A stretch of 51,243 nt of DNA, taken from positions 1-51,243 of IMG/VR virus record IMGVR_UViG_3300025853_000130, one strand, 5' to 3'. The DNA is from a virus. A model generated the notes under the pieces. The model did no database searches. It worked only from the letters and a program-made list of their open reading frames with translations, and had not been told where the DNA came from. Made by a program: the position numbers and the translations under genes. Shown here in pieces: positions 546-37,040 of this stretch. Position 1 is the first letter of the stretch, and each line of letters starts with the position of its first letter.

Positions 546-2876
546 ATGCGGAAGGTGGCGATACGCAAAGCGTACATTTCGCCCCAAGAGTATCGGCAGT
601 ATCTTGAAGATGTGAACCCGTTAGGTGGAAGCATACATTCACTTAGAATGCAACCAGCAGAATACAAAACACCAGCAGAAGCAAGGTCGTTAATGAGTGG
701 AGAAAATGTATTTTTTAGAAATAACCTAAGATACGCTCGACACAAAAATATAGATAAATTACCTTTGGAATTAGACGGAGTACCTTTAGGTGGCCGTTTT
801 ACATATCCCGCAGAATTATTTTCATTCAATCCCGATTTTCAATCGCATTCAAAAGCAGATGTGCCTTCAAGTTACAAGCATGGAAATAGACCGTTGCATC
901 TTTATGGGTTTGAAGGTAAAAATACACCACAAAGATATGCAGAAGTCTTGCAACCCGAAGGTATAATTTATGGCGATGTACCAGAAAGTGATATTCAAAG
1001 AATTACAAACAGACCTATAGATTTTCATGCATTAAGAATGGCGGCAACTGCTTTAATGCCAACGAATAATTTATCTATTGATGAATTAAAAGAAAAGGAA
1101 ATTGAAGCCGCAAAACAATTGATAGCATATGGAATACCACCTGTTCTTAGTGAAGATGTTTCACCCGTTACTCTTGAGCGAACACCTCAATCATGGGAAT
1201 CTATTGAGGATTTTCACGACCCATTTCAACAATGGAGTAAAAATCAACAACTTTTAAATGAACCATTAACGGATTTTACATTTCCAAAAGGTGAACCAAT
1301 GGAAATCGCCTTCCAACTGCTCAAACAAAGCCTTGAATTGCAACCTCCAATGACTCAAAGTGTTGAAGAGCAAGCACCAATGCAAGAAGATACACCCATG
1401 ATAGATATGCAAACAATAGAAAATAATGACCCTTGCTCTTGTGCTGAAACTGTTAGAACAGAAATACTTTCAGATTACCAAAATTACCTAAATCAGATAA
1501 TTGAAGATGAAGATGAAGATGGGCCTAATTGGACTTTTGGTGAGGAAAATGACCCCGAATATGAAACTCCGCATAAGCACGAAGCGTTAAAATATATGGA
1601 ATCTTTGATAGAAGAAGTTGAAAACGCAAGTTGTGAAGAAATAATGGAATATGAATTATATGATGAAATGTGTGATAATGCTGGTTTTAGTGAAGCCGAC
1701 CAAATGAAATACACAGGCGAACCAATGGACATCGCTTTGCGGTTGCTCAAAAATGATTATAGTCAATTACTCCGCTACCGGTTATTCAGCCCCCGATTTA
1801 GATTGAATGAAAATATAGCACCAATGGAAAATTTACCCAATTATCCATTAGGTTTGGATAAACCGGATGATATGGATGTAAGATTTATTAACAATTTAAA
1901 AAATACTATGAGAGATACCGGCAGAAATCATTTAAATTTTAGAACAACTAATGAGTCATCGCCAGATTTCGTACCCTTAACCTATTGGGAAAAAAGAGCA
2001 GATGATAAGAAAAGAGGCGAAATGTTATGGCAAAATAGATTAGATGAATTACAGGCGGCAAATGAAGAAAGAAAAAGAATGGGAATTGCAAACCCTGTTA
2101 ATGTATATACAAACAGAAAACCATTAACTGTGCGGTTGCCTAAAAAGCAAGAGCCAGAAAATGAAGAAGCAGAAAATGAAGATGAAAAACTCGCCAGCGA
2201 ACCAATGAACATCGCCTTCCAACTGCTCAAGGAAGACATTGATTATCAAGACGAAGAGTACATTCATCCTCATGAACAAATATGGAATGATGAAGCAGAT
2301 GAACAACTTATTGCTACTACCAATTCTTTGTGGGATTATGTGGAAAACATGAGTGATGATGACAAGTTATCCTTTTTGAATAATCAAGGAAATTACTTCA
2401 TGAATATGGCTTTTCAAAATCATTTTCCTACTACAAAAGAGGAATTAGACCGAGCAGTAATGGAAATAATGTTTGACGCATGGCAAGACTCGCAAGCGGA
2501 AATGCCCGGTGGTATTGATTTTGGTGATACTAAACCCGATGGCCTCCTTGACCCCGTAAGAGCGCACGCAGTACACCCCTCTCAATGGAAGAAACTCGCC
2601 AGCGAACCTATGGAAATCGCCTTTCAACTGCTCAAAGAGCGTGTAAGCCCCGAAGCCAAGCGGCACAAGTTGGAGTACGACAAGAAGTATGAGTCCAGCC
2701 CCGAAAGAATAAAGTATAGAGAGCAACTTAACCAAGAACGAAGAAAGCGTGGCATATACGGTAGCCACGACCATAAAGACATCAGCCACACCGAAGGTGG
2801 CAAATTAACTCTTGAAGGAGAACATGAAAACAGGGCAAGACATTTCAAAGACAAGGGAACTCTTCGGGAGTTGTAA
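546..2876 (+). CDS. Modular polyprotein-like gene with four internal EPMD tags; HNH-like last module
   Basis: The 776-residue product is not one recognisable fold. It is cut into segments by four near-identical tags: GEPMEIAFQLLK (249-260), GEPMDIALRLLK (391-402), SEPMNIAFQLLK (551-562) and SEPMEIAFQLLK (686-697). Each tag starts a new, dissimilar segment of 85-160 residues, as if separate tagged genes had been joined in frame. Residues 1-248 are unrecognised. The second segment is acidic with a CSC pair and a run of Asp/Glu. The last segment (about 698-776) has the pattern SSPERIKYREQLNQERRKRG followed by a His-Asp-His and a late Asn-Arg; this resembles small HNH-like proteins of phages, a family match made by eye. 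Start ATG 546 has no Shine-Dalgarno. The next gene begins 2 bp after the stop with the same tag, so it reads as the fifth module, separated by a stop codon. Confidence 0.75.
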   Translation: MRKVAIRKAYISPQEYRQYLEDVNPLGGSIHSLRMQPAEYKTPAEARSLMSGENVFFRNNLRYARHKNIDKLPLELDGVPLGGRFTYPAELFSFNPDFQSHSKADVPSSYKHGNRPLHLYGFEGKNTPQRYAEVLQPEGIIYGDVPESDIQRITNRPIDFHALRMAATALMPTNNLSIDELKEKEIEAAKQLIAYGIPPVLSEDVSPVTLERTPQSWESIEDFHDPFQQWSKNQQLLNEPLTDFTFPKGEPMEIAFQLLKQSLELQPPMTQSVEEQAPMQEDTPMIDMQTIENNDPCSCAETVRTEILSDYQNYLNQIIEDEDEDGPNWTFGEENDPEYETPHKHEALKYMESLIEEVENASCEEIMEYELYDEMCDNAGFSEADQMKYTGEPMDIALRLLKNDYSQLLRYRLFSPRFRLNENIAPMENLPNYPLGLDKPDDMDVRFINNLKNTMRDTGRNHLNFRTTNESSPDFVPLTYWEKRADDKKRGEMLWQNRLDELQAANEERKRMGIANPVNVYTNRKPLTVRLPKKQEPENEEAENEDEKLASEPMNIAFQLLKEDIDYQDEEYIHPHEQIWNDEADEQLIATTNSLWDYVENMSDDDKLSFLNNQGNYFMNMAFQNHFPTTKEELDRAVMEIMFDAWQDSQAEMPGGIDFGDTKPDGLLDPVRAHAVHPSQWKKLASEPMEIAFQLLKERVSPEAKRHKLEYDKKYESSPERIKYREQLNQERRKRGIYGSHDHKDISHTEGGKLTLEGEHENRARHFKDKGTLREL
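1290..1325 (+). repeat. EPMD tag copy 1 of the polyprotein-like gene
   Basis: Codes GEPMEIAFQLLK. The nucleotide core GAACCAATGGAAATCGCC is nearly shared with the copies at 1716, 2196 and 2601, so the copies are related by descent rather than only by amino acid convergence. Confidence 0.8.
1716..1751 (+). repeat. EPMD tag copy 2 of the polyprotein-like gene
   Basis: Codes GEPMDIALRLLK, 426 bp (142 codons) after copy 1. It is the most diverged of the four at the Ala-x-x position (Leu-Arg instead of Phe-Gln). Confidence 0.8.
2196..2231 (+). repeat. EPMD tag copy 3 of the polyprotein-like gene
   Basis: Codes SEPMNIAFQLLK. It is preceded by Lys-Leu-Ala, as is copy 4, so the repeated unit extends about three codons upstream in these two copies. 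Confidence 0.8.
2601..2636 (+). repeat. EPMD tag copy 4 of the polyprotein-like gene
   Basis: Codes SEPMEIAFQLLK, again after Lys-Leu-Ala. It introduces the basic HNH-like last segment. Confidence 0.8.
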
Positions 2877-2878
2877 AA

Positions 2879-3340
2879 ATGACTCCGATGGACAAGGCTT
2901 GGTTGTTTTTGAAAATGCCGGTGTATGAAACAAATGTACCCGGTATTCGTTTTGTCACTCAAGGAGATAATGAAGATTGGACACAAGATAAAAGTCTTCA
3001 TGGGGGATTACCGGGTGTTTGGATAAAAGAAGGAAAAACATTTGATTCAACTGAAAGAGAAATACCGCATGAAAGTGATTTAGAAGATTTTGCGGAAATA
3101 ACCAACATGACTCCAAATCAATTCTTACAAGAAACAGGAACAGATGAAATGGTTGAAGATGATTACTACAAAAACCTCATGCAAAGAGCAATGCAAGGAG
3201 AAGATATGCGTTTTGTAATACCAAGAGCAGACTATGTATTTACCGATAGTCCTGTGGGTCATGATGGTCGCCATCGTATGAGAGCATTACAGCAATTAGG
3301 CTACGGAGATACTTCAGTACCTGTCTTTAGGCAATGGTAA
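2879..3340 (+). CDS. EPMD-tagged protein with ParB/sulfiredoxin-like C-terminus
   Basis: The 153-residue product begins directly with a tag variant, MTPMDKAWLFLK (1-12). Its C-terminus holds VGHDGRHRMRALQQLGYGD then Val-Pro-Val, the Gly-x-His-Arg-x-x-Ala signature of ParB-like nuclease/sulfiredoxin-fold domains. The region between is acidic. The ParB fold is known to bind nucleotides or cut DNA, but activity here is inferred from one motif. It lies 2 bp after the polyprotein-like gene and is probably translated with it. It marks the end of this module block; a noncoding repeat region follows. Confidence 0.7.
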   Translation: MTPMDKAWLFLKMPVYETNVPGIRFVTQGDNEDWTQDKSLHGGLPGVWIKEGKTFDSTEREIPHESDLEDFAEITNMTPNQFLQETGTDEMVEDDYYKNLMQRAMQGEDMRFVIPRADYVFTDSPVGHDGRHRMRALQQLGYGDTSVPVFRQW

Positions 3341-3347
3341 GCACTCA

Positions 3348-3378
3348 CTTTATTCACTTTATTCAAAACTTTATTCAC
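3348..3378 (+). repeat. Left arm of 31-bp perfect inverted repeat
   Basis: It matches the reverse complement of 3486-3516 at every base by eye. It contains three CTTTATTCA 9-mers with a four-base AAA-type spacer between the second and third. Confidence 0.85.
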
Positions 3379-3485
3379 CAAAATGACCAAAGCAAATATT
3401 CATTATTCATTATACCTCTATTATTTATTATATATTATTTTAAGACACTATGAATAAAGTGAATAAAGTAGGAATAGTCATTTGA

Positions 3486-3516
3486 GTGAATAAAGTTTTG
3501 AATAAAGTGAATAAAG
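3486..3516 (-). repeat. Right arm of 31-bp perfect inverted repeat
   Basis: It is the reverse complement of 3348-3378, with 107 bp between arms. A further tandem pair of the same 9-mer lies between the arms at 3451-3468. Confidence 0.85.
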
Positions 3517-3560
3517 CGAAACAGTTATAATGACCATATTTTTGACCAAGAGTGAGGACA

Positions 3561-7391: not shown

Positions 7392-8069
7392 ATGGCGGCG
7401 GAGCGTATAGTCAAGCGTTCCTGTGCTTTTTGCATTTCCGAAGAGCGTGATTCATTAGAAGAAGAGATGCTTCAAGGCCACATTTCTGCTCGTCAATTGG
7501 ATAAAGATATGGGGTGGAGGCAGAACACCGCAGACCGTCATTATCGAAATCATATGGGTGAATATTACGAAGCGGCAAATGAATCGTGTCCTGTGTGTAC
7601 TACACCAATGCGTGCTGAGTATGAAACCGCTTATTTCTCAAATGAAATTACATCCGATGAAATAGCAAATCAATTAGAGATAAAAGAAACTGTTGTATAT
7701 CGTCATATGAAGAGTCATTTTCAACCACTTGTCCAAAAATCTGCGGCTATGGAAGTGGCACTTGTTGCGGGTCAAGAAATTGCTTTACTCCGTTCAAATG
7801 CTGAGAAATTAAATCACAAACTAAGTGAACTACTTGATGAAGGAACTGTACATGAAGATGGGTTTGTACGAGATGCTGTCGCTCTTCATAAAGAAGTACG
7901 AGAAACTGTCAAAGACTTGTTGCGTTTCCAAGACCAATGGGGTGCAAAGAGTGATGGGCAACAAGTCAATCAAACATTTAACATTCTTCAAGTTGAGTTG
8001 GGTAAAGAAAGCCCCGAAACTTGGATGCGTATAAAACGCCAATTGCAAGAAAACATGGGGGTTGAATAA
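7392..8069 (+). CDS. DNA-binding protein with two tandem zinc-HTH repeats; terminase small-subunit candidate
   Basis: ATG 7392 is chosen over a longer frame from 7278 because the extra residues lie antisense to the - strand zinc gene and look unselected. The 225-residue product contains two aligned units of 55 residues: C11-x2-C14...H50-x3-H54 (HYRNH) and C66-x2-C69...H105-x3-H109 (HMKSH), each with 35 residues between the Cys and His pairs and an HTH-like centre (ISARQLDKDMGW, TSDEIANQLEIKETVVYRH). The second half is helical. Tandem DNA-binding modules upstream of a terminase large subunit suit a DNA-recognition subunit of the packaging motor, but three genes lie between. A transcription regulator is the alternative. 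Confidence 0.65.
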   Translation: MAAERIVKRSCAFCISEERDSLEEEMLQGHISARQLDKDMGWRQNTADRHYRNHMGEYYEAANESCPVCTTPMRAEYETAYFSNEITSDEIANQLEIKETVVYRHMKSHFQPLVQKSAAMEVALVAGQEIALLRSNAEKLNHKLSELLDEGTVHEDGFVRDAVALHKEVRETVKDLLRFQDQWGAKSDGQQVNQTFNILQVELGKESPETWMRIKRQLQENMGVE

Positions 8070-9718
8070 TGGTTATGGGAAGAGGTTCGGACACTCGCCT
8101 GTATAACCCTCGTAGTGAATCGGATAAGATGTATTCATCTGCAAATGAAGATGAAACAAAATACAATCCCGCTTCACCCGAATACAATGAGCAAAAGCGT
8201 GAAGAAAAGAAACTCAAAGAAGAAGAAAAGAAAGCAAATAAGGGTAAAATAAAACACATTAAAATTCGTGCTTCACAAGGATTGCGTGGTGAAGAAAGCC
8301 CTGTTGCTATGAATGATTCAAACAAAAGAGATGAAGAGCGTGAAATTGGACTTACAGGTGGACCGCCCGGTAGTCGAGGTAATTTACTTGACCTTGCTAC
8401 AGGTGCTAAAACAGGCACAGGTTCAGCAATGACAGGACCATTACCAATCGCAATGAGCGAGCCGATGGATGATGCTTGGAGTACATTGTTGAAGGAAGAA
8501 CCTACTGTACACCCCGGAGAAAATCAATACAAATACAGATATAATATGCCAAATCGTGATGATGTTCACCCCGAATGGTATAATTGGATTCAAGAATTGA
8601 TAGATAAACCGTGGGAATACGAAGGAATTGGGGATGATTTTACACAACCCGATATAGACCATTTAGCAGGTGCTACATCTCGTGAAGATTTTTTTGATAG
8701 ATTATATGATTTACATAATTTTATTGTTGATGATGCACGACCCCCGTTTGATGATATAGAAGGTGAATATCGTGATTTTACTGATGTACCGTTTAATGAA
8801 AAAACAGGTTTCACTATGAGCGAGCCGATGGATGATGCTTGGAGTAATTTGCTCAAAATAGAAACACCACGCACAATTGCACGACGCAGAAAACAAGAAG
8901 CCCGTCAAGAATTTCGACCATCAACAGGACAATTCAAGCGACCTCCCGGCGGCATGGACCCGGTAGGGGCAACAATGCGACGGTTTAAAGCCCGTATGCG
9001 TGGTATCAAAGGTGGTAAGAAAACAGGTTTGATGTTGCCTCACTTAGCCGTTGAAATGAGCCACAGGGGTATTGCGACTAAACAACCGATGAGTAAAGAC
9101 CCACAACGATACCGAGCCTATCAAGGTCAATCCGAGGCAAGAAAAATTCTTGGTAATGTGCGAACTACATTTTCACCACACGCTCGATTTGCACAACGAG
9201 GCAGTTATGCTGGTCCAACAGGAGCGGGTCGTCTTGGTGGATTGTTGCCACAACAAAAGGGAATGATGCGACAACCATCACTTCGACCACTACGAGTAAG
9301 AGCACCACGACCTCCACAACCACCAATGATGCCACCAATGATGCCACCACAATTACCACCTGTTCAATCATCTGTACCAAGTATGCCAGCACCACCATCA
9401 AGTATTATGATGAGTGAAGATAGAACTCAAAGCGACATTTTGAAAGCAAAAAATTTCGCAAGACATATGGAAATGCTTAATTTAATGCGTCGGCTTATTG
9501 CGGCAAAAGAAAGAGAAGCGAAATTAAAGAAAGCGATGCAAGGTGGAGGCTCGGCGTTTGAAAACGGTCATGTTCCCGACCACCCCGCAGGTGTTCAAAA
9601 CAATGAAGATGAAGATGAAAAGAATGATGGACCAACACAAAATCTTGAAACAAATTCAAGCAGAATGGGTCTTGACCCTGCTGGTATTCTTATTTCTCGT
9701 AGGGGGCATATGGGATGA
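8069..9718 (+). CDS. Basic, Pro/Met-rich protein with a cassette bounded by two EPMD tags
   Basis: ATG 8069 overlaps the previous stop (TAATG). The 549-residue product begins with a charged Lys/Glu-rich helix region (40-70). Tag copies MSEPMDDAWSTLLK (129-142) and MSEPMDDAWSNLLK (250-263) are separated by exactly 121 codons. The 107-residue acidic segment between them (Trp, Tyr and Asp-rich) differs strongly from the basic, Arg/Gly/Pro-rich sequence on both sides. After residue 263 the protein is basic, with a PP-MM-PP low-complexity stretch near 415-430 and a final acidic part. The layout looks like one tagged cargo inserted into an older basic protein. A minor head or DNA-associated protein is possible from its place before the terminase; not established. 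Confidence 0.7.
   Translation: MVMGRGSDTRLYNPRSESDKMYSSANEDETKYNPASPEYNEQKREEKKLKEEEKKANKGKIKHIKIRASQGLRGEESPVAMNDSNKRDEEREIGLTGGPPGSRGNLLDLATGAKTGTGSAMTGPLPIAMSEPMDDAWSTLLKEEPTVHPGENQYKYRYNMPNRDDVHPEWYNWIQELIDKPWEYEGIGDDFTQPDIDHLAGATSREDFFDRLYDLHNFIVDDARPPFDDIEGEYRDFTDVPFNEKTGFTMSEPMDDAWSNLLKIETPRTIARRRKQEARQEFRPSTGQFKRPPGGMDPVGATMRRFKARMRGIKGGKKTGLMLPHLAVEMSHRGIATKQPMSKDPQRYRAYQGQSEARKILGNVRTTFSPHARFAQRGSYAGPTGAGRLGGLLPQQKGMMRQPSLRPLRVRAPRPPQPPMMPPMMPPQLPPVQSSVPSMPAPPSSIMMSEDRTQSDILKAKNFARHMEMLNLMRRLIAAKEREAKLKKAMQGGGSAFENGHVPDHPAGVQNNEDEDEKNDGPTQNLETNSSRMGLDPAGILISRRGHMG
8453..8483 (+). repeat. 31-bp direct repeat, copy 1 (EPMD tag)
   Basis: Identical by eye to 8816-8846 over 31 bases, beginning ATGAGCGAGCCGATGGATGA. 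It encodes the start of the tag. Spacing to copy 2 is 363 bp (121 codons), so recombination between copies would delete the cassette in frame. Confidence 0.85.
8816..8846 (+). repeat. 31-bp direct repeat, copy 2 (EPMD tag)
   Basis: Second copy of the repeat at 8453-8483. Identity stops shortly after, where the two tags diverge in their Leu-Leu-Lys codons, so this is not a long duplication. Confidence 0.85.
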
Positions 9719-14358: not shown

Positions 14359-14541
14359 ATGAGTTGTGAATGCGGTCATTGTGTAGGTATGGGTACTGCG
14401 TGGGATTCACTTGAAAAAAAACTATGCCCCGAAGGTAAAGCGGCGGCAAAAAGAAAATTCAAAGTTTATCCATCAGCCTATGCGAATGGTTGGGCTGTAC
14501 AATACTGCAAAGGTAAGTTTCGGGGGAAGAAAAAGAAATGA
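14359..14541 (+). CDS. Small Cys-containing protein with YPSAYAN motif
   Basis: ATG 14359 is preferred because GGGGG lies 8 bp before it; upstream in-frame starts lack a site. The 60-residue product begins MSCECGHC and contains VYPSAYANGWAVQYCKG followed by a Lys-rich end. The YPSAYAN phrase is common in small virion-associated proteins of marine phages and related viruses; its function is not known to me. It overlaps the next gene by four bases (ATGA), starting a chain of three such junctions. Confidence 0.65.
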   Translation: MSCECGHCVGMGTAWDSLEKKLCPEGKAAAKRKFKVYPSAYANGWAVQYCKGKFRGKKKK

Positions 14542-14966
14542 ATCCCTTTGAAATTGCTTGGTTCGTACTAAAAGCCCCTATAGATTGGGATTCATATACA
14601 GAAAATCAAGATGAAGGTCAAAAAATAATCAATGTGGATTATGTTAATCCAAAAGATAGTAACAAAATATACCCTATAACTGCTTGGGATTATGATGACC
14701 CATTTTCACCCGGAATAGATGCTGTTGTTTCTAATCCTAAAGGAGAAAATGTAGGACATGCTAATTTAAGATATGAAGATGACAAAATAACAGTTGATAG
14801 AGCAAATGTAAATCAAATCAACAGACGACAAGGAATCAATACGGCTATGTATCAGTTATTAGAACATCTTTTGCAAGAAAAATTCAATCGTCAAATTGAG
14901 CCTTCTATACATCAAAGTGAGGATGCAAAACAGTTTTGGGAAAGTGATTGGAGGAATAAAAAATGA
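14538..14966 (+). CDS. EPMD-tagged GNAT-like acetyltransferase
   Basis: The 142-residue product opens with the tag variant MNPFEIAWFVLK (1-12). The C-terminal half reads VGHANLRYEDDKITVDRANV then RRQGINTAMYQLLEHLL, which matches the strand plus Q/R-x-x-G-x-G/A acetyl-CoA loop (motif A) of the GNAT fold. A late Trp-containing helix (FWESDW) fits as well. GNAT enzymes transfer acetyl groups from acetyl-CoA to amines; the substrate here is unknown. It is the second example of a small enzyme-like domain directly behind the tag. ATGA overlaps on both sides couple it to its neighbours. Confidence 0.7.
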   Translation: MNPFEIAWFVLKAPIDWDSYTENQDEGQKIINVDYVNPKDSNKIYPITAWDYDDPFSPGIDAVVSNPKGENVGHANLRYEDDKITVDRANVNQINRRQGINTAMYQLLEHLLQEKFNRQIEPSIHQSEDAKQFWESDWRNKK

Positions 14967-15184
14967 CGGCGTTTGAGTATGTCATGGCTTTTCTCAAGGA
15001 AAAGCGTGATGCACCAAACTACCGTGAGGCTTCTCAAGAACAAAAGAAACTCAAAAAAACATGTGCGACATGTAAAGCATGGGATAATTCGGTTACAGAT
15101 GACCCAAAAACGGGATATTGTAATTGGTACGATTTCAATTGTCATGCTGATAATATCTGTGATGCGTGGGTGAAGAAAGAATGA
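14963..15184 (+). CDS. EPMD-tagged small zinc-ribbon protein
   Basis: The 73-residue product starts with a diverged tag, MTAFEYVMAFLKEK. The rest is Cys-rich: C34-x2-C37, then GYCNWYDFNC and ICDAW, six Cys in all. This is a small metal-binding or disulfide module often seen in marine phage genomes. The tag has lost the Pro and Trp but keeps Phe-Glu and the Phe-Leu-Lys end. It overlaps the next gene by four bases. Function unknown. Confidence 0.65.
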   Translation: MTAFEYVMAFLKEKRDAPNYREASQEQKKLKKTCATCKAWDNSVTDDPKTGYCNWYDFNCHADNICDAWVKKE

Positions 15185-15669
15185 CACGATGCACCTGCCA
15201 TGATGTTCTCATTGTAAAGGACTTGAACCGATGGTTTAAGGAAAAGTGGGTGGATGTAAGCCGTAAAGACAAAGATGGTAAGCACCCGCCATGTGGTCGA
15301 AGTAAGGCTAAATTATCGGGCAAGGGTTATCCTAAATGTCGCCCAAGTGTTAAGGTAAGTGATAAGACTCCACGCACAAGCGGTTCAATGTCCGAAGGTG
15401 AGAAACAAGCGGCTACAAAACGCAAGCGTGCCAAAAAACAAGGTGTCGGTGGCAAACCAACAATGGTGAAAGCAATGAAAGATAAAGAAAAGAAAGGAAT
15501 GGTTATGGTAATTGCTATTACGGCTAAACCGAAAGATAAGAACAAAGTAGCAGTAAAGAAAACTGACGATGCGTACAAAATGGGTCGTATGGAACAATGT
15601 TATGCCTGTGGTAATATGTTTCCTAATTGGCAAGCATTACAGGCACATCAACAGCAAACAGGCCATTAA
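15181..15669 (+). CDS. DUF5872-like protein fused to a C2H2 zinc finger
   Basis: ATG 15181 overlaps the previous TGA; GGGTGA lies about 8 bp upstream. Residues about 17-85 (DLNRWFKEKWVDVSRKDKDG, then PCGRSKA and YPKCRPS, then MSEGEKQAATKRKR) match the basic DUF5872 type known from viruses and phages. The C-terminus, CYACGNMFPNWQALQAHQQQ, is a C-x2-C-x12-H-x5-H zinc finger. The 162-residue protein is very basic between the two parts. DNA or RNA binding is inferred from charge and finger. Assignment of DUF5872 is from memory of the pattern. Confidence 0.7.
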   Translation: MTRCTCHDVLIVKDLNRWFKEKWVDVSRKDKDGKHPPCGRSKAKLSGKGYPKCRPSVKVSDKTPRTSGSMSEGEKQAATKRKRAKKQGVGGKPTMVKAMKDKEKKGMVMVIAITAKPKDKNKVAVKKTDDAYKMGRMEQCYACGNMFPNWQALQAHQQQTGH

Positions 15670-19160: not shown

Positions 19161-19502
19161 ATGAGTGAAGAAGCACCCAATGCTGAGTATCTTATGGGTG
19201 TACTCATTAACAAAATGGAAGTAATGGACACCAATTTAAACATTCTAAAGGCTGAAAATGAGGCTTTGAAAAAAATGATTAACAATCCTCAAGCATTGTT
19301 GCGTAAAATGGGTTTAGTTCATGTATCAACTCCACTTACTACAGACCTTTTAGCAGACCCGTTTAGAAATGATTTTGAAGATAATTCAATCCTCAAAACC
19401 GAAAAATCATATATTCCACAATCAAATGAAGAATTCCACAATATGTCGTGGGAAGATATTCATGATTTAGCAAACCAAGCAAAAGGAGTGAAAATTGAAT
19501 GA
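19161..19502 (+). CDS. Coiled-coil protein sharing the scaffold C-terminal motif
   Basis: GAGGTGGTTAA precedes ATG 19161. The 113-residue product has a likely coiled coil at 8-40 (heptad Leu/Met/Ile). Its C-terminus, SNEEFHNMSWEDIHDLANQA, strongly resembles the end of the protease-scaffold protein (STEDLGNMGWDEVHALARR, 27130-27185). Scaffold C-termini in tailed phages bind the coat or portal, so this small protein probably touches the same partner. It sits between portal and the large protein at 20086 and overlaps the next gene by four bases. Portal-scaffold adaptor is an inference. Confidence 0.65.
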   Translation: MSEEAPNAEYLMGVLINKMEVMDTNLNILKAENEALKKMINNPQALLRKMGLVHVSTPLTTDLLADPFRNDFEDNSILKTEKSYIPQSNEEFHNMSWEDIHDLANQAKGVKIE

Positions 19503-25855: not shown

Positions 25856-27208
25856 ATGCTTTCTATAGAACAACCAGCATCGGGTATCACTCTCCTCAAG
25901 AGTGGCTCGGATTTGGTCGTTGCAGGTTATGCATCTGTTGAATTAGTTGATAAGCAAGGCGACCTTATTACTCGTAGTGCTTTGAATGATGCATTTAACA
26001 GTTTTATGAAAAGCGATAAATTCCGCAATGTACAATTGGCACACTCCAACATTCAAGTTGGAGAAGTAATTGACAATTACATTGATTCTAACGGCAGAAT
26101 GTGGAAATCCGAAGTGGATGACACAGGTATGTTTGTCGTTGTCCAACTCCGCAATGATATTGAGAAGGCTCGTGAAGTAGCCGCCGAAATCCGCAAAGGA
26201 AACCTTCGTGGATTCTCTATTGGAGGTCAAGCCTTCAAAAGAGTACGAAGGTCCGATATGGAAAAAGGCGATTACCAAGAGATTTCAAAAATGGAGTTGC
26301 ATGAGATAACGATTTGTGAAAAGGGAATTAACCCCGAAGCACAATTTCGTATTCTAAAGGAGGATAAAAGTATGACAGAAGAAACTGAACTAAACGATAT
26401 TATGTCACGCCTTGAAGCACGATTGGATGCAATGGAGAAGGGAATCCCCCCTCAACTCCGTGAAGCCATTGAAGAAAAGAAAGGCAAAGGCAAAGAACAA
26501 GAAGAAAAGAAAGAAATGAAAGAGGATGATGACATGGAAAAAGGCGACGAATATAGTGATGTTATCTCAGCAGAATACCTATCGTGGATGGAAGACACTC
26601 TAAAATCCGCAGGTGTTGATACTGTTGCGGCACGAACACACTTTGACAACTTGGAAAAAGCACAACTCGGTGGATTCGACAACCCTGACTCAGTGGATGG
26701 TGCAGACTATTTCGCTGGACAGGTACGAGGCCGAGGACAAGAAAACGGTAGCCCATCAACAGGTGCTATCAACGCCGTTTCATCATCGGGTGGTAAAACA
26801 CCTGCTGGTGCTCTCGGTCCTGTATCTATGTCAAAAGGCTACCTTAACGAAAGCAATGTAAGTGATGCTGATATTGAAGCCGCTTACGAAGTGTATAAGG
26901 CCGCCGCTATGGAACAGCATTTCCGAAACAACCTTGAATCTCAATTTGCAGGTCGTTTCAACAACGAAATGGAAATTGCAAAAGCACAACAAGCAAAGGC
27001 TCAATTTGACGCACGAGCACCACTCGCTGAGATTGTTAAGTCAATTGAAGCACTCTCGGAGCGTATTGACAACATTTCAACAGGTAGCACGACTATTCAA
27101 AAGTCTGCATCTGTTTCATCAATTAATGTTCCCTCCACTGAGGACTTAGGCAATATGGGTTGGGATGAAGTCCATGCCCTTGCAAGGAGGACTCTCCGAG
27201 GAGAATGA
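25856..27208 (+). CDS. Prohead protease (U35-like) fused to scaffold domain
   Basis: The 450-residue product has an HK97-type prohead protease in residues about 1-170. GYASVELVDKQGD marks the first strands, LAHSNIQVG holds the catalytic-type His63, LRGFSIGG holds Ser121, and ELHEITICEKGINPEA closes the fold. Residues about 175-450 are charged and helical, the scaffold part, with an acidic EKK-rich stretch near 200-230. The end, STEDLGNMGWDEVHALARR, matches the small protein at 19161. The protease removes scaffold and trims coat subunits during capsid maturation. A separate internal start at 26372 would give scaffold alone. The gene precedes the major capsid gene by 10 bp. Confidence 0.88.
   Translation: MLSIEQPASGITLLKSGSDLVVAGYASVELVDKQGDLITRSALNDAFNSFMKSDKFRNVQLAHSNIQVGEVIDNYIDSNGRMWKSEVDDTGMFVVVQLRNDIEKAREVAAEIRKGNLRGFSIGGQAFKRVRRSDMEKGDYQEISKMELHEITICEKGINPEAQFRILKEDKSMTEETELNDIMSRLEARLDAMEKGIPPQLREAIEEKKGKGKEQEEKKEMKEDDDMEKGDEYSDVISAEYLSWMEDTLKSAGVDTVAARTHFDNLEKAQLGGFDNPDSVDGADYFAGQVRGRGQENGSPSTGAINAVSSSGGKTPAGALGPVSMSKGYLNESNVSDADIEAAYEVYKAAAMEQHFRNNLESQFAGRFNNEMEIAKAQQAKAQFDARAPLAEIVKSIEALSERIDNISTGSTTIQKSASVSSINVPSTEDLGNMGWDEVHALARRTLRGE
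26372..27208 (+). CDS. Nested scaffold protein from an internal start
   Basis: Inside the protease gene, AAAGGAGGAT (26356-26365) stands 7-8 bp before an in-frame ATG at 26372, exactly at the border between protease and scaffold parts (Met173). This is the strongest AGGAGG-type site in the neighbourhood. It would make a 278-residue scaffold without the protease, as lambda does with Nu3 inside gene C. The protein would be mostly helical and end with the shared NMGWDEVH motif. The site is seen; use is inferred. Confidence 0.65.
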   Translation: MTEETELNDIMSRLEARLDAMEKGIPPQLREAIEEKKGKGKEQEEKKEMKEDDDMEKGDEYSDVISAEYLSWMEDTLKSAGVDTVAARTHFDNLEKAQLGGFDNPDSVDGADYFAGQVRGRGQENGSPSTGAINAVSSSGGKTPAGALGPVSMSKGYLNESNVSDADIEAAYEVYKAAAMEQHFRNNLESQFAGRFNNEMEIAKAQQAKAQFDARAPLAEIVKSIEALSERIDNISTGSTTIQKSASVSSINVPSTEDLGNMGWDEVHALARRTLRGE

Positions 27209-27218
27209 GGTGAATTAA

Positions 27219-28319
27219 ATGGCAAGAGATTACATTAGAAACATTACAGACATGGAGCGATACTACTACGGAGCCGGCAACGCTATGGGCTACTCCTACT
27301 CCGGTAGCGAACTTCTCAAAGCAGACGCACCAATGCTTTCAACCACTGCTGGTACATACCAAGCAATCTATGGTCGAAAGGTTTGGTCACAATTGAACCA
27401 AGAGTTCAACGCATTTTCAATCCTACCAAAGCGACCTTGGGAGCGAAGTGGTTGGAGAGTTATTACTGCAAAGCCATCCTTCTCAGTTGGTGGCGGTGTT
27501 GCAGAAAACGCAACTCTTCCAGAAACAACTAAGCCAACCTTCCAACACATTGCCGCAAAGCCAAAAACTGTTGTCCACACATTCGACATGAGTGAAACAG
27601 CAATGTTCCTTTCCGACAAAGATGACGGTCTTGGCGACATTCGTGCAATCCTTAAGGAAGAAATGGGTAAGCACCACGCAGAACACATCAACCAAATGCT
27701 CACAACTGACAAAGGAACTGCCGCAGGTAACGACTTTGAATCACTTGACCGAGTAACAACAGGTGCATCGGCGAGTGCTAACGAAGACATTTACTCAATT
27801 GACCGAAGTGCAAACACATGGTCACTTGCAGAACACAACGAAAACAGTGGTACAGACCGAAACCTTTCACTCGACCAACTTGACGACTTGTTCCAAAAGA
27901 TTTGGACTCGTGGTGGAAATCCAAAGGTCATGCTTACAGGTTACGACACATTGATGCGACTACAACAACTCCTCCAAAGCCAACAGCGATTTATGGAAGA
28001 GAAGAGAGTCACACCTACCTACAACGGTGTCAAGGGTGTTCCCGGTATTGAAGCAGGTTTTATCGTTGCAACATACAACGGTATTCCAATCATTCCATCA
28101 AAGGATGTTCAAACCGACACACTCAGCCGTATCTATTATCTTGATACTGATTACTTGTACTTTAGTACAGCAATTCCAACACAATACTTTGAAAGTGGTA
28201 TTGAAACAGGCGACCCATTCGCTATCAACCGTCTTGGACAAGAGGGTATGTACCGAACAATGGGCGAATTGTGGACAACTTTCTTCGGAGGTCATGGTTC
28301 AGTTCGTGACCTTAAGTGA
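27219..28319 (+). CDS. Major capsid protein, HK97 fold
   Basis: GAGGTGAATTAA precedes ATG 27219. The 366-residue product directly follows protease-scaffold and matches HK97-type coats: a helical N-terminal arm, then FNAFSILPKRPWERSGWRVI and repeated beta segments around PETTKPTFQHIAAKPKTVVH, and a long central helix (IRAILKEEMGKHHAEHINQM). The C-terminal part has P-domain-like strands and ends after LGQEGMYRTMGELWTTFFGG. Codons here are better adapted (more C-ending) than in neighbours, as expected for the most abundant virion protein. The N-terminal about 40 residues could be cleaved by the protease; not testable here. Confidence 0.85.
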   Translation: MARDYIRNITDMERYYYGAGNAMGYSYSGSELLKADAPMLSTTAGTYQAIYGRKVWSQLNQEFNAFSILPKRPWERSGWRVITAKPSFSVGGGVAENATLPETTKPTFQHIAAKPKTVVHTFDMSETAMFLSDKDDGLGDIRAILKEEMGKHHAEHINQMLTTDKGTAAGNDFESLDRVTTGASASANEDIYSIDRSANTWSLAEHNENSGTDRNLSLDQLDDLFQKIWTRGGNPKVMLTGYDTLMRLQQLLQSQQRFMEEKRVTPTYNGVKGVPGIEAGFIVATYNGIPIIPSKDVQTDTLSRIYYLDTDYLYFSTAIPTQYFESGIETGDPFAINRLGQEGMYRTMGELWTTFFGGHGSVRDLK

Positions 28320-29862: not shown

Positions 29863-30450
29863 ATGAAAATTTTAATTAAAGCAATGAAACCACATCGTCA
29901 AAAAATCTTGACCGAAAGCGGTGAAGAAATGAGATTACAACAATGGGCAAACAAAAAGGCCGCAGAAGCACTACGAGGAGCGGGTGGTGATGTACAGGGT
30001 GAGCAGTTTCAACAAGCAAGGGATGCACTCATGCGAGAAGCCGTAGCCAACCCCGATGCTCACGGCCTTAAATTTATGAATGAGCGTATGCCATTTGAGG
30101 GTCAATCCTTAGAAGAATCGTTGAGCGAACCCGATATTGAGAGCGAGCAAGGAGCAGTTAAAGGACCAGAAGAAGGACCGGATGAATGGATGGGGGATGA
30201 ATCTCCCGAACATTTTGAAAATGTAAGAGAAAAAGAAGGTGTCAAACAATTTTTACAACAAAGAGGAAAAGACCTTTTTGATGAGCAAGGCAAACTTCGC
30301 CAAACGCTTTCGCAAGAAAGTGATGAAGAAGAGGAAGATGATTTTGATGAAGATGCCGCCGCAGAACACATGCGGCGTATCATGACCTCTCGTGATATTG
30401 CTATGCGTGATGCTTGGAGTGTATTAAAGCAAGAGCCGTATGAACAGTGA
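29863..30450 (+). CDS. Acidic head-region protein ending in an EPMD-like tag
   Basis: The 195-residue product is strongly acidic, especially 95-175 (Glu/Asp runs), with a basic N-terminal 20 residues. It ends with MRDAWSVLK (181-189) and a short EPYEQ tail, the tag form placed at the C-terminus instead of the N-terminus. The DNA GATGCTTGGAGT is identical with the tag copies in the gene at 8069. Acidity suggests a scaffold-like or DNA-mimic role; not established. If tags recruit cargo to one partner, this gene shows that either end can be used. Confidence 0.65.
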   Translation: MKILIKAMKPHRQKILTESGEEMRLQQWANKKAAEALRGAGGDVQGEQFQQARDALMREAVANPDAHGLKFMNERMPFEGQSLEESLSEPDIESEQGAVKGPEEGPDEWMGDESPEHFENVREKEGVKQFLQQRGKDLFDEQGKLRQTLSQESDEEEEDDFDEDAAAEHMRRIMTSRDIAMRDAWSVLKQEPYEQ

Positions 30451-35828: not shown

Positions 35829-37040
35829 ATGTCATTATTAGCAATGCTCGGTAGTATGTCGGGTATGGTTTCAAACATTGGACCGAGTTTTAAAACCGCA
35901 GGTAAAATGGCTATTGATGCTTTCAAAAATTTATGGGAATGGATTGATAACAATTTAATCCAGCCATTTAGAGATTTTTTCGATTGGATGGGCGGTGCTT
36001 GGGATGGTGTAAAAGAAGCCGGCTCAACAAGTTTTCAAGCGATATGGGATTTCATTGACTCAGTTTTGATACAACCGTTTGTTTCTTTTATTGAATTGTT
36101 TTCTTGGGAAAACATCAAAACTGCGGGAGAAGTTACATTTGATGCCATTTGGACTGTGATAGATACATTATTGATACAACCTTTTGTATCTTTTATTGAA
36201 TTGTTTTCTTGGGAAAACATCAAAACGGCGGGAGAAGTTACATTTAACGCTTTATGGTCTGTAATTGATACTATTTTTATAAGTCCGTGGAAAACATTTT
36301 TTGGTTGGTTTGAAACTATATGGACTAACATATATGACGGAGCGGTATTTGCTTTTGAATCGGCTTGGAACTTTATTGATTTTATTTTCATATCACCGAT
36401 TAAAACAACATTAGATTGGTTGTCATCGGCTTGGGATTCTGTTTATGATGGAGTAACGGGAGCATTTTCGTCTGCATGGGGTTTTATTGATAATAATTTT
36501 ATTTCTCCTGTTCTTGGTTTTATTGACAATTTATCATTTGATAGTATTCTCGATGGCATAACAAGTGCTTTTACTTCGGCTTGGGATTTTATTTCGGGCA
36601 TAGGTACAGACATAAAAGACATGTTTGTATCATTGGGTACAGATTTAGCAGGTGTATTAAAATCGCCAATCAACGGTTTTATCGGGGCTGTGAATAGTTT
36701 ATTTGCATCATTTAAATTTTCTAAGACAATTGATTTGCCGGGTCTTGACCCATTTACCGTAGGATTTGATTTATCGGATTGGAATATACCTATGCTTGCC
36801 AAAGGTGGTATAGTAACAAAACCTACACTTGCTATGATAGGTGAAGGTGGAGGTCCGGAAGCAGTTATACCATTAGATAAAGCGGGAGGTATGGGTACTC
36901 AAAATTTCAACATTACTGTAAATGCGAGCGGTATAACAGACCGTACTGATAAGCGTACACTTGCTCGTGAAATCGGCAATATGATTCAACAAGAGATGGC
37001 TCGTAACATCGGCGGTACTACAATGCGAGGTAGGTACTGA
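35829..37040 (+). CDS. Tape measure protein, short, with 35-residue repeats
   Basis: The 403-residue product is built of Trp/Phe-rich repeats of about 35 residues with the recurring phrase W-x-x-I-D-x-x-(L/F)-I-x-P, six or so units between residues 35 and 230. Two neighbours are almost identical at DNA level. The end, AKGGIVTKPTLAMIGEGG with PEAVIPL, is the common C-terminal signature of tape measure proteins. Tape measures set tail length and reach the membrane during ejection; 403 residues would give a short tail. Strong hydrophobic periodicity fits a helical rod inside the tube. Context (after chaperones) agrees. Confidence 0.8.
   Translation: MSLLAMLGSMSGMVSNIGPSFKTAGKMAIDAFKNLWEWIDNNLIQPFRDFFDWMGGAWDGVKEAGSTSFQAIWDFIDSVLIQPFVSFIELFSWENIKTAGEVTFDAIWTVIDTLLIQPFVSFIELFSWENIKTAGEVTFNALWSVIDTIFISPWKTFFGWFETIWTNIYDGAVFAFESAWNFIDFIFISPIKTTLDWLSSAWDSVYDGVTGAFSSAWGFIDNNFISPVLGFIDNLSFDSILDGITSAFTSAWDFISGIGTDIKDMFVSLGTDLAGVLKSPINGFIGAVNSLFASFKFSKTIDLPGLDPFTVGFDLSDWNIPMLAKGGIVTKPTLAMIGEGGGPEAVIPLDKAGGMGTQNFNITVNASGITDRTDKRTLAREIGNMIQQEMARNIGGTTMRGRY
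36066..36245 (+). repeat. Tandem 105-bp repeat in tape measure gene
   Basis: 36066-36140 and 36171-36245 match at 72 of 75 positions by eye, period 105 bp (35 codons). More diverged units continue on both sides at protein level. Recent duplication of one unit would lengthen the tail by a fixed step. Confidence 0.75.

Follow-up and report, generated by a model that had tools for sequence, protein, structure and literature searches.

Tag-bounded cassette exchange within a gene of a magrovirus-type virus of marine archaea and a possible capsid-targeting role of the tag

The gene at 8069-9718 of a 51-kb IMG/VR virus record (51,243 nucleotides, in the following called the window) is best explained as a cargo-exchange locus, in which modules bounded by a 12-residue tag are swapped by recombination and the tag serves as a capsid-targeting and protease sequence. 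For this reading as a whole we estimate a probability of about 0.6. That modules are shuffled at the tags can hardly be doubted after the comparison of related sequences, while the odds for a packaging role of the tag, judged from motifs and analogy, are roughly even. The tag occupies a fixed place in the gene, where modules of tag plus cargo enter, leave and are swapped in frame. The likely mechanism is recombination, homologous or over short homology, in which co-infecting genomes pair through matching tag DNA. More tentatively, the tag may be amphipathic and target the capsid, with its last residues, SxLLK, forming a site for the prohead protease. Modules inserted in this way would enter the head, be released by cleavage at maturation and be delivered with the DNA. 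Such packing and cutting would explain why a gene can accommodate a module in its middle without damage, and why the tag is found on unrelated proteins at the N-terminus, at the C-terminus or between modules.

The major capsid protein of the window is 37% identical to that of HVTV-1 (34-37% to HVTV-1 and its relatives), and the protein preceding the capsid gene matched Peptidase_S78 (PF04586) with E 1.2e-9, above the gathering score. Contig G001, which like all compared contigs is metagenomic and showed no difference from the window at the points sampled in its left 28 kb, was used as a proxy. It carries genes for an archaeal B-family polymerase, the chaperonin Cpn60, an ERCC4 nuclease and clamp-loader proteins, which we take to be a typical magrovirus (Poseidoniales) gene set. 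Judged by the presence of both the HVTV-1-like capsid protein and this archaeal gene set in window and proxy, we assign the virus to the magrovirus-type tailed viruses of marine archaea, with the host deduced from that kinship.

Table 1 Tagged genes, tags, cassettes and head genes of the window
Feature	Position	Strand	Remark
Second tagged gene	546-2876	+	Tag array in another dialect (EPMxIAFQLLK), with cargo modules
Array tag 1	1293-1325	+	EPMEIAFQLLK
Array tag 2	1719-1751	+	EPMDIALRLLK
Array tag 3	2199-2231	+	EPMNIAFQLLK
Array cassette (third)	2232-2603	+	60% identical to cassette 1 of the 8069-type gene of L030
Array tag 4	2604-2636	+	EPMEIAFQLLK
Free-standing ORF	2879-3340	+	N-terminal tag TPMDKAWLFLK (2882-2914); homologues swap cargo at tag end
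Tagged gene, 549 aa	8069-9718	+	Conserved N part, tag 1, cassette A, tag 2, basic conserved C part
31-bp direct repeat, copy 1	8453-8483	+	Start of tag 1
Tag 1	8459-8494	+	EPMDDAWSTLLK
Cassette A cargo	8495-8815	+	Acidic, 107 aa; stops just before second repeat
31-bp direct repeat, copy 2	8816-8846	+	Start of tag 2
Tag 2	8822-8857	+	EPMDDAWSNLLK
Free-standing ORF	14538-14966	+	N-terminal tag NPFEIAWFVLK (14541-14573); weak GNAT acetyltransferase match
Prohead protease (S78) fused to scaffold-like part	25856-27208	+	ITLLK-SG and FRILK-ED at two domain borders
Major capsid protein, HVTV-1-type	27219-28319	+	SELLK-ADAP near N-terminus, like end of tag
ORF ending in a tag-like sequence	29863-30450	+	AMRDAWSVLK (about 30400-30429); DNA core GATGCTTGGAGT common with the 8069 tags

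The two tag copies in the gene at 8069 had been described as identical over 31 bp and in frame. This was confirmed: the identity covers exactly 31 bp, and the copies lie 363 bp or 121 codons apart within one ORF. Such an exact repeat is far above chance in 51 kb, and the agreement of all seven degenerate codons, given the amino acids, has a chance of about 4e-4 with background same-codon rates. The tag consensus in this gene is SEPMDDAWSxLLK. The segment between the tags is acidic and rich in Trp and Tyr, as previously noted (net charge -18 over 107 aa, W+Y 9.3%, GC 36%). The flanks had been called basic; this holds for the C-terminal one (net +26 over 286 aa, W+Y 1.0%, GC 46%), whereas the N-terminal one is weakly basic (+2). 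The protein had no match in Pfam or PHROG and no relative among 50,697 phage records. AlphaFold, run on cassette A with three sequences, reached a mean pLDDT of 39 and the model was not used.

Relatives were collected from IMG/VR by protein search and with a degenerate DNA pattern of the tag. Altogether 92 distinct 8069-type genes were found in related viral contigs, 57 with one tag, 30 with two and five with three, a count that homologues without tag would escape, as the relatives were partly gathered by the tag pattern. The first tag lies mostly near residue 130-150, and the peptide is highly conserved across all these relatives. No cassette is carried by the 57 one-tag genes, and one or two are present in the 35 multi-tag genes. 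Other segments between the tags, as anticipated for exchangeable cargo, were encountered in abundance: about 20 unrelated cassettes occur in the 35 genes. These inserts of 48-367 aa, 36/40 of them acidic, were sorted by manual count into about 20 families with no detectable mutual similarity. In this set, cassette A is restricted to the window lineage, L004 and L005. Pairs of genes with C parts 82-98% identical often have different cassettes. On a quick backbone tree of 67 genes, with architectures scored from cassette length and gain and loss not distinguished, at least 15 presence/absence changes and at least 27 architecture changes are required.

The tag pattern is virus-specific, with 108 stretches in IMG/VR versus one match in 257 Gb of prokaryote genomes. 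A host origin of the tag was rejected, since one match in genome contigs of this total length is about the number expected by chance. This lone match, at chance level, comes from an Asgard group archaeon MAG (L121:7286-7321, in a contig of 8 kb).

Whole cassettes distinguish near-identical viruses (about 92-97% nucleotide identity), and the breakpoints fall on the tags. A version without the 363-bp segment does exist: contig G026 (L032) is devoid of the cassette A type present in its near relative G002 (L005). Over 861 nt of the downstream part, the two genes are 97.9% identical, and in the whole-contig comparison the homologous block begins at the first base of the tag. Left of the tag the identity is 97.1% over 69 nt; this side of the comparison is so short because G026 has just 69 bp upstream. 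Two contigs (G026:C1:1-105 and G029:C1:1-97) stop about 60-70 bp short of the tag, which would fit a break of assembly at a site polymorphic in the sampled population. Further pairs differ in other ways. Contigs G027 and G028 (93-96% identical) have unrelated cassettes between their tags. Between G011 and G012 (92-98% identical) a 510-bp insertion corresponds to one tag-to-tag distance, the tag being aligned twice, and G030 and G031 (about 90-93% identical) are distinguished by a tag-duplicating insertion whose 510-bp unit is related to that of G011/G012. Cassette D of L106 and L059 forms a block from tag to tag with 87-100% nucleotide identity in 20-codon windows, although the backbones are mostly 35-60% identical. 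In this way a 510-bp unit has moved between backbones of only 35-60% identity.

The position of the joints was narrowed down in 20 comparisons of empty and filled alleles, which are not all independent as several have a common member. Codons before the tag matched the first tag at 102 of the 110 informative sites (102 vs 8), and codons after the tag matched the last tag at 145/158 (145 vs 13); the switch falls inside the tag. The exchanged unit is usually tag plus cargo, joined inside the tag. An assembly artefact was considered and is unlikely, as the identical filled junction was present in separate contigs (window, L002 and L003) and cassettes occur in diverged copies. Moreover, a repeat of 31-36 bp is shorter than the usual assembly k-mers, which counts against such an artefact. 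The first-pass annotation had read the repeats as traces of insertion or exchange of cargo by recombination at the tag. With cassettes absent, replaced or moved and their boundaries inside the tag, this reading is well supported.

The strong form of a purely protein-level explanation, in which selection on the peptide makes the tags alike, the cassette is a fixed part and DNA homology plays no role, is refuted by these near-identical genomes, which gain or lose whole cassettes with breakpoints in the tag. The high conservation of the peptide across relatives and the near-background variation of most tag codons would fit this explanation. Yet the tags of one gene agree in synonymous codons beyond permutation: first and last tag of a multi-tag gene are alike in 30.3 of 39 nt, compared with 28.4 when tags are dealt between genes (0/5000 permutations). 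The repeats are therefore more alike than codon constraint predicts, as had been supposed, and most clearly so at the core GCT-TGG. The Ala codon of the tag is GCT in 123/128 tags compared with a background of 36%, and GCT is used by A-W pairs far more often inside tags (91/97) than outside (94/192). The associated p of 9e-16 overstates the case because related sequences are not independent. Apart from GCT and GAT, most tag codons are hardly more conserved than the background, which places the constraint mainly in the core. Word avoidance was examined as a source of the GCT bias, CCTGG being absent; it explains part of the bias, since GCC before TGG never occurs, but the pairs outside tags still have GCT at no more than the above frequency. 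Taken together, a purely protein-level origin has next to no chance of being correct, and exchange also seems to occur in the conserved core of the tag.

A conserved core in the middle of the exchange zone could also be the target of a site-specific recombinase or a homing-type nuclease. The cassettes would then be mobile in the manner of integrons, with GATGCTTGG as the recognised core, and the exact duplication of the tag by the 510-bp insertions would agree with such a mechanism. However, no integrase, transposase or site-specific recombinase was present among 25 of the 28 Pfam families listed for G001, and the cassettes themselves encode no recognisable recombinase. Genes with other tag dialects carry cassettes without this core, and one junction lies at the last codon of the tag. 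We regard integron-like mobility as highly unlikely. RecA, RecT and ERF were likewise absent from these 25 families, which weighs against the cargo-exchange reading. For an intein or homing element, no splicing-motif or homing-nuclease Pfam match was found in the cassette-bearing proteins.

The tag is not confined to the 8069-type gene. The window and seven related contigs have 2-11 tags each, and shuffled proteins almost none. The tagged proteins form 69 clusters, a few of which are 8069-type genes, with the tag at N-terminal, internal or C-terminal position. The dialect is gene-specific, with 12 residues in 8069-type and 11 in 546-type genes. It had been proposed that shuffling at the tag would account for the fused array at 546-2876. 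The relationship of its third cassette to one in the 8069-type gene of L030 is relevant to this, each of the two being framed by the tag dialect of its own gene. The C-terminal module of the array gene corresponds to phrog_6437 and is fused to many different tags in relatives. For the ORF at 2879-3340, the homologues in G027 and G028 are identical in 85/89 nt through the N-terminal tag and in 17/62 after it: the leader is kept and the cargo replaced. At a third locus G012 is about 330 bp longer than G011, the extra stretch ending in a tag. Its left junction lies after a VK codon pair, at the last codon of the tag, with a homology of only a few bases; long DNA homology is thus not always needed. 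A module ending in KRKRSKKQGVGGKPTIVK (DUF5872-like), encoded at 15166-15669 and also in L075, L099, L067 and G011/G012, is followed by different cargo or tags from virus to virus, and its final VK is itself a junction. Two further repeats of the window were recorded. A 43-nt inverted repeat (3345-3387 / 3477-3519, 93% complementary, with TTTATTCAC-type repeats) lies in the intergenic region before 3552 and may serve in replication or regulation. A gene for a tail-type protein contains two 105-nt repeats in tandem (36033-36242, 85% identical).

Regarding the function of the tag, its general pattern xP[MF][DE]xAWx(x)LLK fits a short amphipathic helix. Motifs similar to its end SxLLK occur at three places: SELLK-ADAP close to the capsid protein N-terminus, ITLLK-SG where the protease domain starts and [RS]ILK-ED where protease and scaffold meet. 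For the first and the last of these, HVTV-1 has MSK-AD and VSK-AD at the aligned positions. Outside the tags, [ST]x[LI][LMI]K was rare, with 31 cases in 183,510 aa. Asp or Glu stands two residues after the tag in 64/128 cases versus 13% in the background; the residues after the Lys vary, unlike those at a strict protease site. The SxLLK-like motifs at capsid and protease sites suggest that this type of sequence is a maturation-protease motif. The tag found no match in the 50-kb head half of HVTV-1, and a literature search on capsid cleavage in HVTV-1 gave nothing useful. The C-terminus of the protease-scaffold protein, LGNMGWDEVHALA (27140-27208), resembles the C-terminus FHNMSWEDIHDLA (19440-19502) of the ORF at 19161-19502. 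This common ending is a second terminal motif in head genes and is kept in relatives of the protease-scaffold protein.

The same tag could instead be a structural or protein-binding repeat that attaches to a component of the virion or of the infected cell, such as a scaffold, portal or replication protein. Domains would then be shuffled at this repeat by ordinary recombination, and the cassettes would be accessory domains that are neither cleaved nor packed as free cargo. The tag evidently works without cargo, since 57/92 genes have it without a cassette, and both its N-terminal, internal and C-terminal positions and the dialect of each gene would suit a binding motif. Against this stand the resemblance of the tag end to motifs at three expected maturation-protease sites and the fact that one gene tolerates about 20 kinds of unrelated and mostly acidic insert in its middle, which is easier to understand if they are cut out. 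We consider a binding repeat possible but rather unlikely. A capsid-targeting sequence ending in a site of the capsid protease is the most likely role of the tag, because the motifs concur and T4 offers a precedent.

In T4 a 10-residue capsid-targeting sequence (CTS) directs internal proteins to the head and is then cleaved (PMC9026906), and Ip1-3 are injected inhibitors of restriction (PMC12373910). The internal-protein (IP) loci of T-even phages (Repoila et al. 1994 EMBO J, as cited in PMC12373910 and PMC3012670) are the closest comparison. They too combine a conserved leader of about 10-11 residues on unrelated small proteins with highly variable cargo, differ between close relatives and belong to viruses encoding a prohead protease. 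In the viruses studied here, a short leader on unrelated proteins and cargo varying between close relatives, with junctions at conserved sequence, were observed; packaging and leader cleavage are suggested by the resemblance of the motif to likely cleavage sites. However, each IP is a gene of its own with an N-terminal leader, whereas here a single gene takes up modules in frame with the tag itself as junction, C-terminal tags occur as well and the host is archaeal. Shuffling at the IP loci has reportedly been ascribed to gene-flanking sequences of about 70 bp. No homology to the T4 CTS or the IP proteins was found in 50,697 phage records, Pfam or PHROG, so the locus would work like an IP locus and is not a member of that group.

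Other systems share single properties. In the T-even adhesin loci, to judge by the title of Tetart 1998 cited in PMC3012670, exchange within a gene also takes place between short, conserved stretches of coding sequence, which provide the DNA homology. There, receptor-binding segments of a tail protein are concerned, whereas here whole modules, several genes and a genome-wide tag are involved; homology was again not detected by Pfam, PHROG or the 50,697 phage records. DarA and Hdf of phage P1 are head-associated anti-restriction proteins, comparable in this counter-defence during DNA delivery to the role proposed here for the cargo, but the abstract of PMC12810830 does not describe tag-bounded cassette exchange. 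A word search of the magrovirus paper PMC10160649 gave no mention of repeats, modularity, cassettes, mosaicism or recombination. If the tag packages, the locus would be an archaeal, within-gene counterpart of the T-even internal-protein loci. Encapsulins likewise load unrelated cargo into an HK97-fold shell by means of a short terminal peptide; they are, however, cellular compartments without cassette arrays or maturation protease.

The cargo is probably a counter-defence or host-takeover protein. With Pfam almost no cargo domains were recognised in 30 tagged proteins and the proteins of the window. Tagged cargo at L127:4133-4642 and L135:7235-9964 has the motifs FRGIHGG and YHGTT, which recall ADP-ribosyltransferases, with no Pfam support. 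Alt of T4 is a head-packed ADP-ribosyltransferase. Several short words are strongly avoided in the window, as the observed/expected numbers indicate: GATC 0/161, AGCT 0/150, ACGT 0/103, CTAG 0/64, CGCG 0/59, GCGC 1/71 and GTAGA 0/59. Avoidance was also seen in G001, G002, G003, G010, G013, G016 and most loci; CCWGG is absent from six contigs, and GATC, AGCT and CCWGG from 151/156 loci (1.8 Mb, partly overlapping). The words depend on the lineage, with CCAG avoided in G010 and G016 and TCGA in G003. Such extreme, lineage-dependent avoidance points to heavy restriction pressure, and since the words are of restriction type, counter-restriction cargo is plausible, no more.

A further step would be a polyprotein system for injected effectors, in which in-frame arrays of tag plus cargo would be brought into the procapsid by their tags and be split at each tag by the capsid protease. 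The 36-bp tag would then be packaging signal, protease site and recombination site at once. This triple role is a speculative extension that we hold to be doubtful; if it were true, archaeal viruses would build new sets of effectors by homologous exchange during co-infection.

In general, the cargo-exchange reading offers a testable account, at the level of sequence, of a possible source of diversity in the proteins that abundant viruses of marine archaea deliver to their hosts. The tag can be used as a search key for candidate effector genes, its 69 clusters being nearly all without annotation. Should it direct packaging, archaeal HK97-fold capsids could be loaded with cargo through a short, portable peptide, and the T4 CTS would have an independent analogue.
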